From NCBI GenBank assembly GCA_030595835.1, contig JAUVLG010000009.1, forward strand, positions 1 through 50,716: a DNA stretch of 50,716 bases, given 5' to 3'. A model generated the notes under the pieces. The model searched no databases and was not told where the DNA came from. It saw only the letters and a program-made list of their open reading frames with translations. Positions 43,568-50,716 of the stretch are shown here, in pieces. The position numbers and the translations under genes were made by a program. The number at the start of each line of letters is the position of its first letter. Position 1 is the stretch's first letter. Origin of the DNA: Candidatus Eiseniibacteriota bacterium. Lineage in GTDB: Bacteria > Joyebacterota > Joyebacteria > Joyebacterales > Joyebacteraceae.

Positions 43568-44161
43568 CTACTTAAGGAGCACGAGCTTCCTGGTCGCGCG
43601 GAAGGCGTCCGTGTGGCCGGCGGTCTCCATCTTCACGAAGTAGACGCCGCTTGCGGCGCGGTGGCCGGCGTCGGTCGTGCCGTCCCACACGGCCGAGTGC
43701 TCGCCTGCCTCGACCGGCGAGTCGACGAGGGTCCGCACGACACGGCCCGCTGCATCGAACACGCGGATGGTCGCGCGGCCGTCGGTCGCCAGACTGAAGT
43801 CGATGGTCGTCACAGGATTGAACGGGTTGGGCCGCGCGTGGTCGAGTCTGTTCGTGAAGACCCCGCCGTCATCCGTCCCGGTCCCCGGCCCCGTAGGCGT
43901 CTTGCTGAAGTACTCCATGATGTTCGACATGAGGTCGACGCGGTCGGACGCGCCGGATTCGAACTTCCCCGGCGGACTAGACCCTTCCATCATGAACTCG
44001 ATTCCGAACCCGAGGTTGACGGTCTGATACCCCAGCGTCGTATCTGTGTATGCCACCCCAGCCGGCCAGACCACCATGTCCGACGTCACGTATTCCGCTA
44101 CCAACTCCGCTCCTTCAGCAGCCGGACCCGGCTGCACTACATCGAAGTAGTTTGCGTTGTA
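43568..44161 (-). CDS. C-terminal part of paralog 1, in frame after a TGA codon (FlgD-like tail)
   Basis: This reading frame continues directly from the TGA at 44162-44164 without a shift: YNANYFDVVQPGPAAEG, then the conserved GYQTVNLGFGIEFMM and DRVDLMSNIMEYF blocks, and the FlgD/type-A-like C-terminal domain (NPFNPVTTIDFSLATDGRAT, GVYFVKMETAG, ending LVLLK). It aligns with the other two paralogs up to and past the TGA, so it was one gene with 44162-46492. No separate ribosome site is visible. It is expressed only if the TGA is read through, as selenocysteine or otherwise; if not, this part is a remnant. Confidence 0.7.
   Translation of the reverse strand, partial: YNANYFDVVQPGPAAEGAELVAEYVTSDMVVWPAGVAYTDTTLGYQTVNLGFGIEFMMEGSSPPGKFESGASDRVDLMSNIMEYFSKTPTGPGTGTDDGGVFTNRLDHARPNPFNPVTTIDFSLATDGRATIRVFDAAGRVVRTLVDSPVEAGEHSAVWDGTTDAGHRAASGVYFVKMETAGHTDAFRATRKLVLLK
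44118..44135 (-). promoter_or_regulatory. SECIS-like hairpin downstream of the in-frame TGA
   Basis: GCAGCCG-GGTC-CGGCTGC: a perfect 7-bp stem with a 4-base loop beginning GG, starting 26 bases after the TGA so the loop begins at +34. Bacterial SECIS elements have a stem-loop with the apical loop roughly 16-37 bases after UGA and a G in the first two loop positions. The two Cys-bearing paralogs do not have this hairpin. Confidence 0.45.
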
Positions 44162-46492
44162 TCACCCATCGTCCCACAGGTGGCAGAGGCCGTCGCCGTA
44201 CGTCATGAAGGCGAAGCCTCCGGCGGCGTCTCTGACGATGGGCATCGTGTCCGCGTAGGTACCCGGTCGGTTCTGGACATACTCCGTCGCCAGCCAGTCC
44301 GTGTAGAACCCGAGCGTCTCTCTGCCCGCCTCTATCAGCTCGTATCCGATGTCGTTGCCGGTGAGAAGGAGGTTCCTCTCTTTGCCATCGTCGGACTGGC
44401 TCAACCACGCTATGAGGTTGCGCTGGTCAGTGGCTCTCAGCGTGTGGTAACCAAACTCGTTCGTGAACCAGATCTGCGTATCGTAGTACTTCATGCCGGA
44501 GCTGTCGGGTCCCTCAGAGAAGATGCTGCCCGACGGCACGTTGACATCGAAAACGTCGTACTCGAACCCGAGGATGTCGAGCGCCTCACGGTAGAACGAC
44601 TCGCTCATGGTCCTGGCGTGGCGGTCCTCGCCCATTGTCACGCGGCCGTGCTTGTCGACCAGGAGGACGCAGGGATCGCTGACGCTGCCGTTGATCGGGA
44701 GTATCGAGAATTCATAGTAGGCGTCGGGGGCGTTCCTGGGGTGGGTTCGGACGTTGCCAGCGCCGTCTGTCGCTTCGAAGTAGTGCCGAATCTCTGTCGA
44801 CGGAGCGACGTGGCTTGCCGGCAGCGGCACAATCCACCAATCGTCCTCCGGACTCTCGTCAATCAGAGGGAACGACTCCCACGTCGAACCGGCATCGCTC
44901 GAGACGACGAGGAACGCCGAGAGTATGCCGTCCCCGTCGGAGATTTCGATGCTTGCGGTGGTATCCGACAGAGCCTCGGAGATGTCGAACGTGTCGTGGA
45001 ACCTGTCCCACACGTAGTAGTCCCACCTGGTCGGCGGCCCTCCGACCGGCACTCCGACACGCTGGTGGTCGATCATGAAGCCGGCTTTGTGATACCCCGA
45101 CGGATAAGTGTTCTCGAGACGCCAGTTGATGGCAAACCAGTCCGGCCCCGCGAAGTTGCTCCAGTCGTCGGTCCACCTGTACCAGTACTCGCCTTCGAGC
45201 GGCAAGAACCAAGTGCACACGAAGCCGCGCGCCAGGTCCTGAACGCACTCCTCGGAGTCCTCCGCCGCGAGCCAGAGCTGGATCCGGTCCTCGGACACCC
45301 TCGAGCAATCGTACCACGCTTCCCACTGACCGATGAGGGTCGTTGCCCCCGAGATATCGATTGGCGGGCTGATGAGCCACGAGTTCTGCCCATCGACCAT
45401 CGTGCCTGTCAGTGAGTCGAGGGCCGCCATCCACCAGTGCTCTCTCGGCCACTCGCACCACGTGCCGAGCATGTCCGGGTCGAACACACGCTCGAAAACG
45501 ACACCGGTCTGCTCCAACGCAGGGATGTTCTCGTGCACCCATCCGTTGCTACCGGGAGACTCGCAATCGTCGTACCAGCGCACGGTGTCGTTGACCGTGA
45601 GGGTGAAGTTGTCCAGCTGCCATGCGCCGTCGCGGACCGAGCCGTGGGAATTGTCGTACTCGTCCTGTGAGGAGTACGCGCCATCGGACTCGAACCTGTA
45701 GCGCAGGAGGATGTCGCTGCCCGCATACGCGTCCAGGTCCTGCCTCTGGTGCCCCTCGCACTCCGGAATCATGCAGTCCCAATTGCATGATATCCCGGGC
45801 GTTCCCGTGAAGCCGGGATTATTGAACGCGGCGATCGTGGTCCATGCGGAGCCGCCGTCGTCGGACACATCGAGGTAGCCGTAGTCGTAGTCGTTCTCCA
45901 TGGCAAACCGCTGGTCCCACTCGAAGTCGACCTGATCGCCGGGCGCGCTCCACTCGGAGAGCGGGAACTCGCGCACGAGGGAACATAGCCAGTCGTTCCC
46001 GTACCCGCGCGGCTGGCGCCAACAACTGCTGTACGTGCCGCACCACCAGGTACTGTCGCCGAGATACTCGAATCCGTTGATACGGATCGTGTCCTTGTGC
46101 CAGTAGTTGACGACTTCCAGTGTGCCGCTCATGTCAAGCGAGAGCCACCCGGCGTTGTCGCCCAGGAGGTCCTCGAAGTCGGCATCGAAGATCCAGAGCG
46201 TCTCCTCGCCGGCAGAGCGGTGGCCGCGGCCCTCGTCGGAGCCGACATCTCCGCGGATGCCGAAGAGCTCATCCGCACGCGCGCCGCTCGGCGATGCCGG
46301 TGGTTCCAGAGCAGACGACATTTCGGTTGCGTTGTATTCACGCGCCGCCGCGAGGCAGGGTGCGGCGGATACCAAGAGGATGATACCTGTGGCAATGACG
46401 CATGTGAGGAAGAGACACGTGGACACGAGTTGCGCGCCGCTGTTGACGGTGCTCAAGTGACGCGCACGGCGCTCGCGTGTGCGCGGTTTCAT
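44162..46492 (-). CDS. Large secreted jelly-roll protein, paralog 1 (N-terminal part, up to in-frame TGA)
   Basis: 776 residues to the TGA, 974 if it is read through, against 961 for paralog 2. ATG 46492 follows AGGAGG by eight bases. After a signal peptide (VSTCLFLTCVIATGIILLVS) comes ETLWIFDADFEDLLGDNAGW and a beta-sandwich with STWWCGTYSSCWRQPRGYGN. A second sandwich follows (WYDDCESPGSNGW...ISPPIDISGATTLIGQWEAW), then a Rossmann-like domain (PCVLLVDKHGR, MKYYDTQIWF, RNLLLTGNDIGYEL) resembling parts of gingipain/C25-associated or class I amidotransferase-like folds without visible catalytic residues. The frame meets TGA (44162-44164) after CHLWDDG, exactly where both paralogs have Cys. Confidence 0.8.
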   Translation of the reverse strand: MKPRTRERRARHLSTVNSGAQLVSTCLFLTCVIATGIILLVSAAPCLAAAREYNATEMSSALEPPASPSGARADELFGIRGDVGSDEGRGHRSAGEETLWIFDADFEDLLGDNAGWLSLDMSGTLEVVNYWHKDTIRINGFEYLGDSTWWCGTYSSCWRQPRGYGNDWLCSLVREFPLSEWSAPGDQVDFEWDQRFAMENDYDYGYLDVSDDGGSAWTTIAAFNNPGFTGTPGISCNWDCMIPECEGHQRQDLDAYAGSDILLRYRFESDGAYSSQDEYDNSHGSVRDGAWQLDNFTLTVNDTVRWYDDCESPGSNGWVHENIPALEQTGVVFERVFDPDMLGTWCEWPREHWWMAALDSLTGTMVDGQNSWLISPPIDISGATTLIGQWEAWYDCSRVSEDRIQLWLAAEDSEECVQDLARGFVCTWFLPLEGEYWYRWTDDWSNFAGPDWFAINWRLENTYPSGYHKAGFMIDHQRVGVPVGGPPTRWDYYVWDRFHDTFDISEALSDTTASIEISDGDGILSAFLVVSSDAGSTWESFPLIDESPEDDWWIVPLPASHVAPSTEIRHYFEATDGAGNVRTHPRNAPDAYYEFSILPINGSVSDPCVLLVDKHGRVTMGEDRHARTMSESFYREALDILGFEYDVFDVNVPSGSIFSEGPDSSGMKYYDTQIWFTNEFGYHTLRATDQRNLIAWLSQSDDGKERNLLLTGNDIGYELIEAGRETLGFYTDWLATEYVQNRPGTYADTMPIVRDAAGGFAFMTYGDGLCHLWDDG

Positions 46493-46585: not shown

Positions 46586-49471
46586 CTATTTCAACATCAC
46601 CGCCTTGCCGGTCTCGCTGAACGCGCCGGCGTCGCCACTACCTTCCATCTTCACGAAGTAGACGCCGCTTGCCGCTCGCTCGCCCGAGTCGGTTGTTCCG
46701 TTCCAGACGATCGCGTGCGGGCCTGCTTCAACTTCCCCATCGACGAGCGTCGCGACGACCCGTCCCGCAAGATCGTGGACCCGGATGGTCACTCGCGAGC
46801 GACCTGCCAGGCTGTACGCGATCGTCGTCGCAGGATTGAACGGGTTGGGACACACATGGCTGAGCTTCGTGACGAATACTCCGCTACCCTCAGTGCCCGT
46901 GCCCGTTCCCGGCCCCGTCGGCGCCTTCTGGAAGTACTCCATGATATTCGCCATGAGGTCGACGCGGTCCGATGCACCGGGTGCGTAGTGGCCCGTGGGA
47001 AGCAGAGCATCCGACATAAACTCCATGCCGAACCCCAGCGTCACGGTCTGGTACCCGGTGGAATCCGTGTGGGCGACCCCGGCCGGGAGGCTTGTCATGT
47101 CCGACCTCACGTACTCCACTGCGGTCTCGACACCATCGATCGCCCTCGATGGCTGTATCACGTCGAAGTAGCCCAGGCTCGGGCAGCCGCCGCGTAGGAT
47201 GCAGGAGTTGTCATCGAACGTCATGAAGTCGAAACCGGTGGGGTAGTTCCTAAGAACAGGCAGGCTGTCGGCAGTGACTACACCGACCCCGTCGGACACG
47301 TATTCACTGACCAGCCAGGTCGAGTAGAAACCCAGTGTCTCGGCACCGCCGACCACCAGGTCGTGCCCGATGTTGTTGCCGCTCAACAGTAGATTGCGTT
47401 CCTTGCCTTCGCCCGCCTGTGCAAGCCAGGTAATGAGATTGGCCTGGTCGACAGGTTTCAGAGCGGGCGCTCGCGAGTCGCTTGTTATCCAAATCTGAGT
47501 GTCGTAGTACTTCATCCCCACCGTATCCGGACCCCACGACCCGAATCCGTGGTACCCAGGGAACTCCACATCGAACACTTCGTAATCGTGACCGAGTATC
47601 TCCAGCATCTCCCTGTAGTAGTACTCCGACGAATGGCCGAAGGCGCGGTCCTCACCCGGCGTCGTCGCGTTGTGCTTGTCGACGATCAGGATGCCTGGCT
47701 CAGTCAGGGTTGCCCTAAGAGGCAGGATGGAGAACTCGAAGCAGTCATCGGGAGCCCCGCGCGGATAGGTGCTGGCGTTCCCCAGATTGTCCGTGGCCTC
47801 GAAGTAGTAGAGTATCTCGCTGCCCGCCATCATCTGATTGGCGGGAGGAGGTCCTATCCACACGTCGGGCGGGTAGTGGCTGTGATTCATGGGATAGGCC
47901 TCCCAAGTCGCTCCGGAGTCGTTGGACGCGACAACAAACGCAGAGGCGATGCCGTCCTCGTCGTCGATCTCCACGTAGGCCGAATCAAGGAACGCGACCG
48001 TGAGCTGCTCCCAGAACCAGTCGTTGAACCGTCCGTCCCCCCAGCCAAGCCAATGCCCGGGGTACGACCATCGGGTCTCCACCTCTCCCGACACGACGCC
48101 GACTCGCTGGCGGTTGAGGAAGAGCCCTCCCATGTGGTCTTCCTCGGGCGGAGGCACCATCTCGCTCCGCACGGCCCACATCATCGCCAGCCAGTGGTTC
48201 CCGGTCAGGTGCTGCCAGTTGTCGGTCCAAGTGCCCCATTCCGGCTCGCAGTACCACCAGCCCGGCGACTCATCGACGAACACGTCGGGTCTGACGACGC
48301 ACTCCTCCAGGTCGGTGGCCGAGACGAGCAGGTTGAAGATGTCGCCGGACCGACGCGGGAAGTCGATCCACATGTCCCACTGGCCCACCAGGTTCGTGGC
48401 CCCGGAGATGTCTATCGGCGGGCTCATCAGCCACGCGTACTCATCATCGACCATCTTGCTCGTCATCGGATCGACCGCGGCGTACATCCAACCCTGGCGT
48501 TCGTCACAGGAGAACGCCCGGCCGGTCCAGAAGTCCGTGCCGTAGACTCCGCGGGAGAACGTCACTCCCGTCTGCCCGGACGTAGGGATGCTCTCGTGCG
48601 CCCAGCCGTTGTCGCCGGGGCTCTCGCAGTCGTCGAGCCACAGCAGCTCACCGTTCACGTACCAGGCGATGTTGTCGAACTGCCACGCACCGTCGAGGCA
48701 CGAACTGGACGGCGGGTTATCCCACTGGTCCTGTGACGAGTAGAAGGAATCCGATTCGAAGCGGAAACGCAGAGCAAGCTCCTCGCCGGCGTACTCGCTC
48801 AGATCGATGTCCTCATGTCCGGGGCACAAGGGATGCACATTGTTCCAGTCCATCCCTGGGCCCGGGGTGCCCGGGAACCCTGGATTGGTGACGGACTCCA
48901 CAGTGGTCCACGTCGCGCCGCCGTCTGCGGAAACGTCGGTGTAGCCGTAGTCGTAGCGAGCCTCGATGGCGATGCGCTGGTCATACTCCAGAACAAGAAT
49001 ATCACCGGGCTCACTTGCGACGGTCACCTCCGGGAAGCTCCTCGACAGAATGCACACCCAGTCGTTCCCGTATCCGCGCGGCTGCCGCCAGCAGTTGTCG
49101 TACGTCCCGCACCACCAGGTGCTGTCTCCGAGGTGCGGGAACCCGCCCATGCGGATCGTGTCCTTGTGCCAGTAGTTGACGTAGCCCAAGGACCCGCTTC
49201 TGTCGTGACTGGTCCATCCTGCGTTGTCGCCCAGCAGATCCTCGAAATCGGCGTCGAAGATCCAGAGTGTCTCCGTCCGCGCCGTGGTGCGTGACGCGTT
49301 GCGTGCATCCGGGGACGGTGCCACAACTCGCCGGATGGCGTCCGCCGCCGGACGAGCGGCCGCCCCGGTGGCGAGAAGGAACGCCGCGGCGACGCTCAGG
49401 AGTGCGGTCGTTCCGACCCCCCCTCCTAGTGGAACACGCCGCCAGCTGTTCGGATTCCTTCTCGTGTTCAT
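46586..49471 (-). CDS. Large secreted jelly-roll protein, paralog 2, with FlgD-like C-terminal domain
   Basis: 961 residues from ATG 49471 (GAGAGG six bases upstream). Signal peptide around VGTTALLSVAAAFLLATGAA. It has the same layout as paralog 1: ETLWIFDADFEDLLGDNAGW, STWWCGTYDNCWRQPRGYGN, LWLDDCESPGDNGWAHESIP, LMSPPIDISGATNLVGQWDM, then PGILIVDKHN, MKYYDTQIWITSD and RNLLLSGNNIGHDL. A loop has two Cys in CILRGGCPSLGYFDV. The C-terminus is a FlgD/type-A-like domain (CPNPFNPATTIAYSLAGRSR, GVYFVKMEGSG, ending AVMLK) that in related bacteria directs secretion or surface attachment. Function is unknown; a cell-surface or extracellular role is likely. Confidence 0.82.
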   Translation of the reverse strand: MNTRRNPNSWRRVPLGGGVGTTALLSVAAAFLLATGAAARPAADAIRRVVAPSPDARNASRTTARTETLWIFDADFEDLLGDNAGWTSHDRSGSLGYVNYWHKDTIRMGGFPHLGDSTWWCGTYDNCWRQPRGYGNDWVCILSRSFPEVTVASEPGDILVLEYDQRIAIEARYDYGYTDVSADGGATWTTVESVTNPGFPGTPGPGMDWNNVHPLCPGHEDIDLSEYAGEELALRFRFESDSFYSSQDQWDNPPSSSCLDGAWQFDNIAWYVNGELLWLDDCESPGDNGWAHESIPTSGQTGVTFSRGVYGTDFWTGRAFSCDERQGWMYAAVDPMTSKMVDDEYAWLMSPPIDISGATNLVGQWDMWIDFPRRSGDIFNLLVSATDLEECVVRPDVFVDESPGWWYCEPEWGTWTDNWQHLTGNHWLAMMWAVRSEMVPPPEEDHMGGLFLNRQRVGVVSGEVETRWSYPGHWLGWGDGRFNDWFWEQLTVAFLDSAYVEIDDEDGIASAFVVASNDSGATWEAYPMNHSHYPPDVWIGPPPANQMMAGSEILYYFEATDNLGNASTYPRGAPDDCFEFSILPLRATLTEPGILIVDKHNATTPGEDRAFGHSSEYYYREMLEILGHDYEVFDVEFPGYHGFGSWGPDTVGMKYYDTQIWITSDSRAPALKPVDQANLITWLAQAGEGKERNLLLSGNNIGHDLVVGGAETLGFYSTWLVSEYVSDGVGVVTADSLPVLRNYPTGFDFMTFDDNSCILRGGCPSLGYFDVIQPSRAIDGVETAVEYVRSDMTSLPAGVAHTDSTGYQTVTLGFGMEFMSDALLPTGHYAPGASDRVDLMANIMEYFQKAPTGPGTGTGTEGSGVFVTKLSHVCPNPFNPATTIAYSLAGRSRVTIRVHDLAGRVVATLVDGEVEAGPHAIVWNGTTDSGERAASGVYFVKMEGSGDAGAFSETGKAVMLK

Positions 49472-49556
49472 CTCGCACCTCTCTGAACCGAGAGAACGTG
49501 GGCCGCGGCCGTGGCTGCGGGCAGGCTCCCACGATCGGCGCAAGCCGACTCGGCGG

Positions 49557-50716
49557 CTACTTCAGAAGAATGAGCTTCCTGGTCGCGCGGAAGGCGTCCG
49601 CGCGGCCCGCTACCTCCATCTTCGCGAAGTAGACGCCGCTCGCGGCGCGGTGGCCGCTGTCGGTCGTGCCGTCCCACACGGCCGAGTGCTCGCCTGCCTC
49701 GACCGGCGAGTCGACGAGAGTCCGCACGACTCGGCCCGCTGCATCGAACACGCGGATGGTCGCGCGTCCGTCTGTCGCCATGCTGAAGTCGATAGTCGTC
49801 ACGGGATTGAACGGGTTGGGGCGCGCGTGGTCGAGTCTGTTGACGAACACCCCGCCTTCATCCGCCCCGGTCCCCGGACCCACCGGCGCCTTCTGGAAGT
49901 ACTCCATGATATTCGCCATGAGGTCCACGCGATCAGATGCGCCGGACGCGTAGTGGCCCGTGGGAAGCATGGCGTCCGACATGAACTCCATGCCGAATCC
50001 GAGCGTCACGGTTTGGTACCCGCTCGAGTTCGTGTAGGCGACCCCGGCGGGGCGAGTCGTCATATCGGCCTTCACGTACTCCGCAATCAACTCGGCGCCG
50101 AAGACGCCTGGGTACGGTTGGATCACATCGAAATCACAGAGCTCAGGGCACCCTCCGCGCAGCACGCACGCACGGTCATCGTAGGTCATGAAGTCGAAGC
50201 CGCCCGCGACGTCGCGCAGCCCGGGCATGCTGTCGACCAGCGCATCCCCGACAGCGTCGTCCAGGTACTCGATCGCAAGCCATGTCAGGAAGAAGCCGAG
50301 CGAGTCGGCCCCGCCGAGTTCACTGGCGATGTCGTTGCCGGTGAGGAGCAGGTTCCGCTCCTTCCCCTCTTCTGACTGGCTCAGCCACACAATGAGGTTC
50401 TGCTGATCGATTGGCTTGACCGTGTAGGCGCCGAAGTCACTCGCGAACCATATCTGTGTGTCGTAGTACTTGTACCCCTCACTGTCCGGGCCATCTGACT
50501 GGTCGGTGCTGCCCGAGGGAACCTCCACATCGTAGACGTCGTACTCGAATCCGAGTATGTCCAGCGCCTCTCGGTAGTAGTCCTCGGACATCGTGGAGTA
50601 GTCGCGATGCTCGCCCGGCACGCGTCTGCCGTGTTTGTCGACCAGCAAGACGCATGGGTCGTCGACGCTGCCGTGGATCGGCAGGATGGAGAACTCGTAC
50701 TGCACGTCGGGGGCGC
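49557..50716 (-). CDS. Large secreted protein, paralog 3 (5' end outside window), FlgD-like tail
   Basis: The frame is open to the window edge: the last codons read NAPDVQYEFSILPIHGSVDD-like sequence, homologous to internal parts of paralogs 1 and 2, so the gene starts beyond 50716. It contains the PCVLLVDKHGR...KYYDTQIWFASDFGAY...RNLLLTGNDIASEL domain, the CVLRGGCPELCDFDVIQP loop and the FlgD-like C-terminal domain ending LILLK. Its last ~290 bp are nearly identical to those of paralog 1 and much less like paralog 2, which suggests gene conversion. Confidence 0.82.
   Translation of the reverse strand, partial: APDVQYEFSILPIHGSVDDPCVLLVDKHGRRVPGEHRDYSTMSEDYYREALDILGFEYDVYDVEVPSGSTDQSDGPDSEGYKYYDTQIWFASDFGAYTVKPIDQQNLIVWLSQSEEGKERNLLLTGNDIASELGGADSLGFFLTWLAIEYLDDAVGDALVDSMPGLRDVAGGFDFMTYDDRACVLRGGCPELCDFDVIQPYPGVFGAELIAEYVKADMTTRPAGVAYTNSSGYQTVTLGFGMEFMSDAMLPTGHYASGASDRVDLMANIMEYFQKAPVGPGTGADEGGVFVNRLDHARPNPFNPVTTIDFSMATDGRATIRVFDAAGRVVRTLVDSPVEAGEHSAVWDGTTDSGHRAASGVYFAKMEVAGRADAFRATRKLILLK

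Follow-up and report, generated by a model that had tools for sequence, protein, structure and literature searches.

A probable new family of exported selenoproteins in Eisenbacteria

The window analysed here is the whole stretch of 50,716 nt from contig JAUVLG010000009.1 (assembly GCA_030595835.1), which belongs to a Candidatus Eiseniibacteriota MAG of 2.85 Mb that is 98.5% complete. Three neighbouring paralogous genes, P1, P2 and P3, are located on its minus strand (Table 1). P1 starts with an ATG at 46492, preceded by the Shine-Dalgarno-like stretch GAGGAGGTG, and its frame ends with a TAG at 43570–43568. The frame is interrupted by a single TGA in the context CHLWDDG-TGA-YNANYFDV, which is codon 777 of P1 and residue 799 of P0001, the start of which lies 22 codons earlier.

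Table 1. Features of the P1 gene and its surroundings, with positions in the window.
Feature	Position	Strand	Basis or remark
P1, predicted selenoprotein gene	43568..46492	minus	974 codons + TAG stop; read-through homology
Signal-peptide-like N-terminal stretch	46343..46492	minus	Basic start, long hydrophobic run, A-x-A; judged by eye
InhA-like MAM domain	45668..46000	minus	PF20773, 32.2 bits (cut-off 26.9)
Sec-bearing domain, class I GATase-like fold	43904..44677	minus	AF2 model and structure comparison
Upstream Cys (C792 of P0001)	44183..44185	minus	Putative Sec partner (C-x6-U)
In-frame TGA, predicted Sec codon	44162..44164	minus	TGA at same column in six genomes, mostly Cys elsewhere
Hairpin H1	44136..44151	minus	5 bp, 6-nt loop; begins 10 nt past the TGA; putative accessory part of the recoding signal
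Hairpin H2	44118..44135	minus	7 bp, loop GGTC; directly adjoins H1; core of the predicted bSECIS
FlgD_ig / T9SS type A sorting-like C-terminal domain	43619..43777	minus	PF13860 and TIGR04183
P2, paralog	46586..49543	minus	Cys at the Sec column
P3, paralog	49557..50714	minus	Truncated where the contig ends; Cys in the Sec column

The initial annotation, made from the sequence alone, had proposed that this TGA encodes selenocysteine (Sec). The codon is indeed present, and homology continues past it in the same frame up to an FlgD-like tail, with the next in-frame stop found 197 codons further on. The alignment also agrees that the TGA falls on the second cysteine of P2 and P3, a position that had been obtained by counting back from the shared FDV motif. 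Elsewhere in the window TGA is used as an ordinary stop, as had been noted before: it terminates four of the 20 long ORFs checked, and in two genomes, G001 and G003, the copy of the P1 gene itself finishes with a TGA.

A homolog search of genome contigs yielded 47 loci, and whole-genome homolog searches covered 20 genomes, the order and class levels returning the same 20 as the family level. All sequences of the family are derived from MAGs. A TGA occupies the same protein column in six genomes from three genera (G000, which is the source genome, G001, G002, G003, G007, and G010). Among 96 domain matches from the 20 genomes, six contain an in-frame stop, and all six stops are TGA codons at the Sec column; neither TAG nor TAA was ever found at this column among the homologs. 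The composition of the column was determined for 66 unique domain sequences, with matches not spanning residues 660–860 set aside, for which reason the Sec copy of G001 is outside this set: 55 sequences have Cys, five have Sec, one has Trp, and five have another residue or a gap, the one gap row (L087) being a Cys misplaced by the alignment. Strain specificity of the TGA, named beforehand as one of the findings that would speak against selenocysteine, was thus not observed, since the codon recurs in five other genomes, together with SECIS-like hairpins.

In full-length comparisons, all stops other than the TGA at the Sec column are located in the 5' leader, with the exception of the distant homolog L150. 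The in-frame TGA of the latter stands at a Trp position and was not counted as Sec; it indicates that sporadic stops or errors occur in these MAGs. The TAG codons of L017/L050 and L055/L060/L077, the TGA codons of L017, L050, L071, L073, L102, L114, and L137/L151, and a second TGA in G001 were rejected as Sec sites because they lie in the 5' leader, at query position 51 or lower.

The six TGA copies differ from each other at dS of about 0.5–1.3. After the TGA, dN/dS is 0.18–0.40 in all 15 pairs of these copies, similar to the values of 0.16–0.40 before the TGA in the 10 comparable pairs; judged by these ratios, purifying selection acts at the protein level on the codons that follow the TGA. 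A frameshifting deletion immediately precedes the TGA in the G001 copy.

The second line of evidence comes from RNA structure. The initial annotation had pointed to a perfect 7-bp hairpin with loop GGTC 26 nt past the TGA as a possible SECIS element. This hairpin, H2 (GCAGCCG-GGTC-CGGCTGC), is present, with its loop 33 nt past the TGA, and lies within the range of the rule for bacterial SECIS elements (bSECIS) given in the Fig. 2 legend of PMC13188914: a loop of 3–9 nt with a G in the first two positions, a stem of 4–16 bp, an energy of −7.5 kcal/mol or lower, and a distance of 16–37 nt from the UGA. A second hairpin, H1, located between the TGA and H2, had been missed. Since H2 obeys the rule and the H1 loop in the window, TTCGAT, does not have the G required in the first two positions, H2 is taken as the presumed core of the signal and H1 as its presumed accessory part. 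The energies of H2 in the six TGA homologs range from −10.0 to −13.3 kcal/mol, and the rule as worded in that legend is obeyed in all six of them and in the single Trp homolog, compared to five of 46 Cys homologs and none of five others. The hairpin had also been described as absent from P2 and P3; H2 is not formed in either of them, but P2 carries an unrelated rule-passing hairpin (−11.5 kcal/mol).

Rule-passing hairpins are not rare: one was found in 8.3% of 3000 random 75-nt windows of the same contig, so that a hairpin alone is weak evidence, and given also the five Cys homologs that pass the rule it was rejected as proof. The case for a putative recoding signal is made by the conservation and covariation of the hairpins in the aligned sequences. 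Two abutting hairpins are found in all six TGA copies, H1 with 5 bp and H2 with 7 bp (6 bp in two copies). Over 12 pairs and six sequences, 97.2% of the 72 cells are paired (100% in H1 and 95.2% in H2). Four of the 12 pairs, two in each hairpin, show changes on both sides, and one covarying pair appears as U-A, G-C, and C-G in different copies. Values as high as those observed were reached in 1 of 500 shuffles for pairing and in 6 of 500 for both-side changes, and RNAalifold recovered the same two hairpins unaided. While the TGA copies keep 11–12 of the 12 pairs, the mean is 6.48 for 46 Cys windows and 5.0 for five others. Shuffling by synonymous recoding gave P values from 0.0035 to 0.082 for the six TGA copies, being weak in two (0.047 and 0.082); by this measure single copies are only suggestive, and it is the set of six that makes a convincing case for a candidate structure. 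For the G010 copy, single-sequence folding of a longer stretch prefers another pairing, and the two hairpins form when their own stretch is folded alone. A covariance model built from the six copies and scanned over 30 sequence sources returned the known sites and weaker matches at Cys homologs.

Phylogenetically, Sec, Cys, and Trp versions are intermingled. One supported clade (97/97) comprises five sequences, namely the Sec copies of G000, G002, and G003, the Trp copy of G002, and the Cys copy of G003. The Sec sequences from G007 and G010 form a pair with weaker support (90/87). The Trp copy of G002, which has TGG at the site, keeps all 12 hairpin pairs, and the Cys copy of G003 keeps 11 of 12. 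Hairpins in close Trp and Cys homologs are as expected if Sec had been lost recently, and the simplest story would be an older Sec form followed by recent changes to Trp and Cys in copies that still bear the old RNA signal.

The presence of the Sec machinery in the genome had been proposed as a check, and most of it was found. The source genome contains tRNA-Sec (68.6 bits versus a gathering score of 47, also called by ARAGORN), SelA (436 bits), and SelD (361 bits), the gene of which is located directly upstream of tRNA-Sec and has one in-frame TGA at its Sec site (RCSG-TGA-ASKLG). Across the family, tRNA-Sec is above the cut-off in 19 of the 20 genomes. SelD was surveyed in the tRNA-Sec surroundings of G000 and 18 other genomes (G009 gave no SelD row, and the stretch of G013 was not included), and the SelD site is TGA in all 19 readable copies, from 18 genomes; since this holds for every readable copy, UGA is very probably translated as Sec in one or more further genes of this lineage.

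In contrast to the other components, SelB was not found above the cut-off in the source MAG; a match of C238 to TIGR00475 was rejected as SelB because it reads as EF-Tu. With the SelB of G002 as a query, relatives were detected in 12 of the 20 family genomes, including G002 itself, and in none of the other five members of the genus. Those five of the six genus MAGs also lack ispG, the neighbour of selB, and the joint absence suggests that the locus was lost in binning. The SelB of G002 is encoded on a 4.9-kb stretch with 99.94% identity to a contig from G011, which belongs to another genus, so that the true owner of the contig is unsure and this SelB was not accepted as evidence for the genus as a whole; comparing tetranucleotides left the ownership undecided. 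Since its SelD is of the Sec type, the organism would nevertheless be expected to possess SelB.

The C-terminal region of P1 matches the FlgD_ig family PF13860 (44.8 bits, cut-off 27) and the T9SS type A sorting domain TIGR04183 (27.4 bits, curated cut-off 23), while the related Pfam model PF18962 remained below its cut-off (20.8 versus 27). No Pfam family matched the Sec-bearing domain of the window; a Pfam scan of 45 domain members gave weak matches in two of them, to PF06475 only, and a PDB sequence search with the domain profile returned nothing under E 0.4. The AF2 model of this domain (pLDDT 85.8, pTM 0.86) was matched by VIA-align to 3rht_A (Z 16.7, 3.2 Å over 205 residues) and 3soz_A (Z 15.6), and GH42 and ThuA-like domains were also among the fold matches. 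In class I glutamine amidotransferases (GATases), the catalytic Cys sits at the nucleophile elbow that follows the central strand. The P1 domain shares their fold without this catalytic Cys: the elbow after model strand 130–134 reads TGND, and the predicted Sec is located between strands 192–195 and 208–211, in the loop before the latter. Since the elbow reads TGND and Sec sits elsewhere, the model would not place Sec as a GATase nucleophile. On the best reading of the sequence, the product is a protein of about 970 residues, presumably exported, that combines a MAM domain, a GATase-fold Sec domain, and a sorting-type tail.

We conclude with high confidence that P1 is a selenoprotein gene, the UGA of which would be recoded by H2, backed by H1, in an mRNA for a presumably exported protein. 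The proposal of the initial annotation is thereby supported, the comparison having revealed a recurrent TGA at a column otherwise held mainly by Cys, Sec/Cys exchange between homologs, covarying hairpins, purifying selection, and most of the Sec machinery; insertion of Sec in vivo is predicted from this combination. It seems extremely unlikely that the TGA is instead a real stop created by a nonsense mutation, or a miscall in the assembly, with the downstream part decaying or expressed separately. The origin of the sequences from MAGs, the isolated TGA at a Trp position in L150, and the frameshifted G001 copy lend this reading some substance, but the same TGA stands in six genomes separated by the dS values given above, is followed by sequence with low dN/dS, is never replaced by TAG or TAA, and is accompanied by RNA structure that covaries. 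Very unlikely, too, is a selenium-free mechanism in which tRNA-Trp or another near-cognate tRNA reads through the UGA with the aid of the hairpins, yielding short and long forms. The TGG codon in the closest G002 homolog, where both hairpins are intact, would suit it; however, the residue typical of the family is Cys (55/66) rather than Trp (1/66), the Sec machinery and a Sec-type SelD are kept in the genome, and H2 fits the bSECIS rule in every TGA copy.

Under the selenoprotein reading, translation would go on past the recoded UGA to the FlgD/T9SS-like tail, and Sec would take the place of the Cys of most family members within the GATase-fold domain. Its most likely role, and our best guess, is a redox-active or thiol-reactive one outside the cytoplasm. 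A Cys is found 7–11 residues upstream in most members; within 11 alignment columns before the Sec column it is present in four of five unique Sec homologs and in 45 of 55 Cys homologs, and in the G010 homolog it is replaced by Thr. As regards this role only, a serious rival, if on balance an unlikely one, is that Sec is decoded but has no chemistry of its own, having replaced a Cys of a structural bond and being tolerated there. The interchange of Sec, Cys, and Trp inside one clade, the position of Sec off the nucleophile elbow in the model, and the members without the upstream Cys would all agree with tolerance. Against it stand the retention of Sec and its SECIS across three genera and the translation efficiency that Sec normally costs.

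Within the literature compared, P1 represents a new selenoprotein family, although of an already known kind, the bacterial selenoprotein with a bSECIS; on our best reading, this new family of Eisenbacteria consists of exported selenoproteins. No comparable protein is present in Table 1 of a 2026 review, which covers 119 selenoprotein families (PMC13188914). Literature searches for selenoproteins or selenocysteine in Eisenbacteria and for selenium in Eiseniibacteriota found nothing, and those linking selenoproteins with type IX secretion or selenocysteine with Krumholzibacteria found only unrelated work. According to section 7 of the same review, most characterised selenoproteins have a thioredoxin-like fold, and P1 would add a family to a list dominated by such folds, with Sec placed in a probably exported protein of large size that ends in a sorting-type tail. 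Standard annotation would label its gene as truncated. The occurrence of Sec, Cys, and Trp versions in close relatives, including a Trp copy with the RNA signal, opens the loss of Sec to study in place. More tentatively, and with somewhat less than even confidence, one could hypothesise a class of surface-displayed, sorting-tailed selenoenzymes that carry Sec in a reactive GATase-like loop and not in a thioredoxin fold, use a composite two-hairpin SECIS, and occur in tandem Sec/Cys/Trp arrays in which Sec is gained or lost in place.

Like the bacterial selenoproteins that depend on bSECIS elements, such as formate dehydrogenase and SelD, P1 has an in-frame UGA, Cys homologs, a rule-meeting hairpin, and Sec machinery in the genome. 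Unlike them, it has two abutting hairpins, with the loop of the rule-passing one 33 nt off, while in the SelD genes of these genomes the hairpin is nearer to the UGA. Envelope or exported selenoproteins in Table 1 of PMC13188914 include the TonB-dependent receptor FCYXU, an MtrB/PioB-type barrel, a UshA-like protein, and SaoX/SaoB; as in P1, Sec is predicted outside the cytoplasm, but none of them has the MAM/GATase-like/FlgD-tailed make-up. The CTP synthase C-terminal region-related selenoprotein (glutamine amidotransferase, NF004836) resembles P1 in having Sec in a GATase-type domain and differs in its GxUxG motif, the Sec of P1 being predicted in the loop before strand 208–211 with TGND at the elbow. 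The GATase1-like and GH42/ThuA-like domains of 3rht, 5xb7, and 1t0b share the fold of the P1 domain, but their sequence identity to it is only 10–13%, and the elbow of P1 is without Cys.

A close homolog of P1, the gene of the window with a predicted Sec codon, was found in G002, a genome of the same genus, where TGG (Trp) occupies the position of the TGA, while both hairpins abutting 3' of it are unbroken, with 12 of 12 pairs retained. Judged from sequence, this homolog appears to have lost its Sec recently, with the SECIS left behind. In the Sec copy of G001 (L059/L075/L081; G001:C198), a short stretch has been deleted directly 5' of the TGA, shifting the frame, and the upstream Cys lies within the missing stretch. 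The frameshifted gene could be either a broken copy or an assembly error.

Among 20 long ORFs of the window whose stops were checked, 15 end with TAG, four with TGA, and one with TAA. A distant homolog (L150) carries an in-frame TGA, at a place where paralog 2 has Trp (PG-TGA-WY versus PGWWY) and Cys is absent; a sporadic stop, an error, or something else could account for it.

Coordinates of the features in the extracted loci
Feature	Locus	Position
G002 close homolog	L055	718-1440
G002 close homolog	L077	5897-6619
In-frame TGA, distant homolog	L150 (G008:C18)	1540
SelD adjoining tRNA-Sec	L009	8189-9400
ThiI/2-thiouridylase-like gene	L009	7168-8139

The G002 contig carrying selB and ispG (L124, G002:C162) is 99.94% identical to part of G011:C184 (L126/L185), from a bin of another genus, and neither gene was found in the remaining five MAGs of G002's genus. 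In the window genome and in L166-L184, the tRNA-Sec surroundings of other family genomes, SelD adjoins tRNA-Sec where it is readable; all 19 readable SelD copies contain a TGA, followed directly 3' by GGTCC-GGA-GGACC in 18 of the 19, as seen by eye. Directly after tRNA-Sec in L009 lies a gene resembling a ThiI/2-thiouridylase-type protein, for which, as a guess, a putative link to selenium could be proposed.
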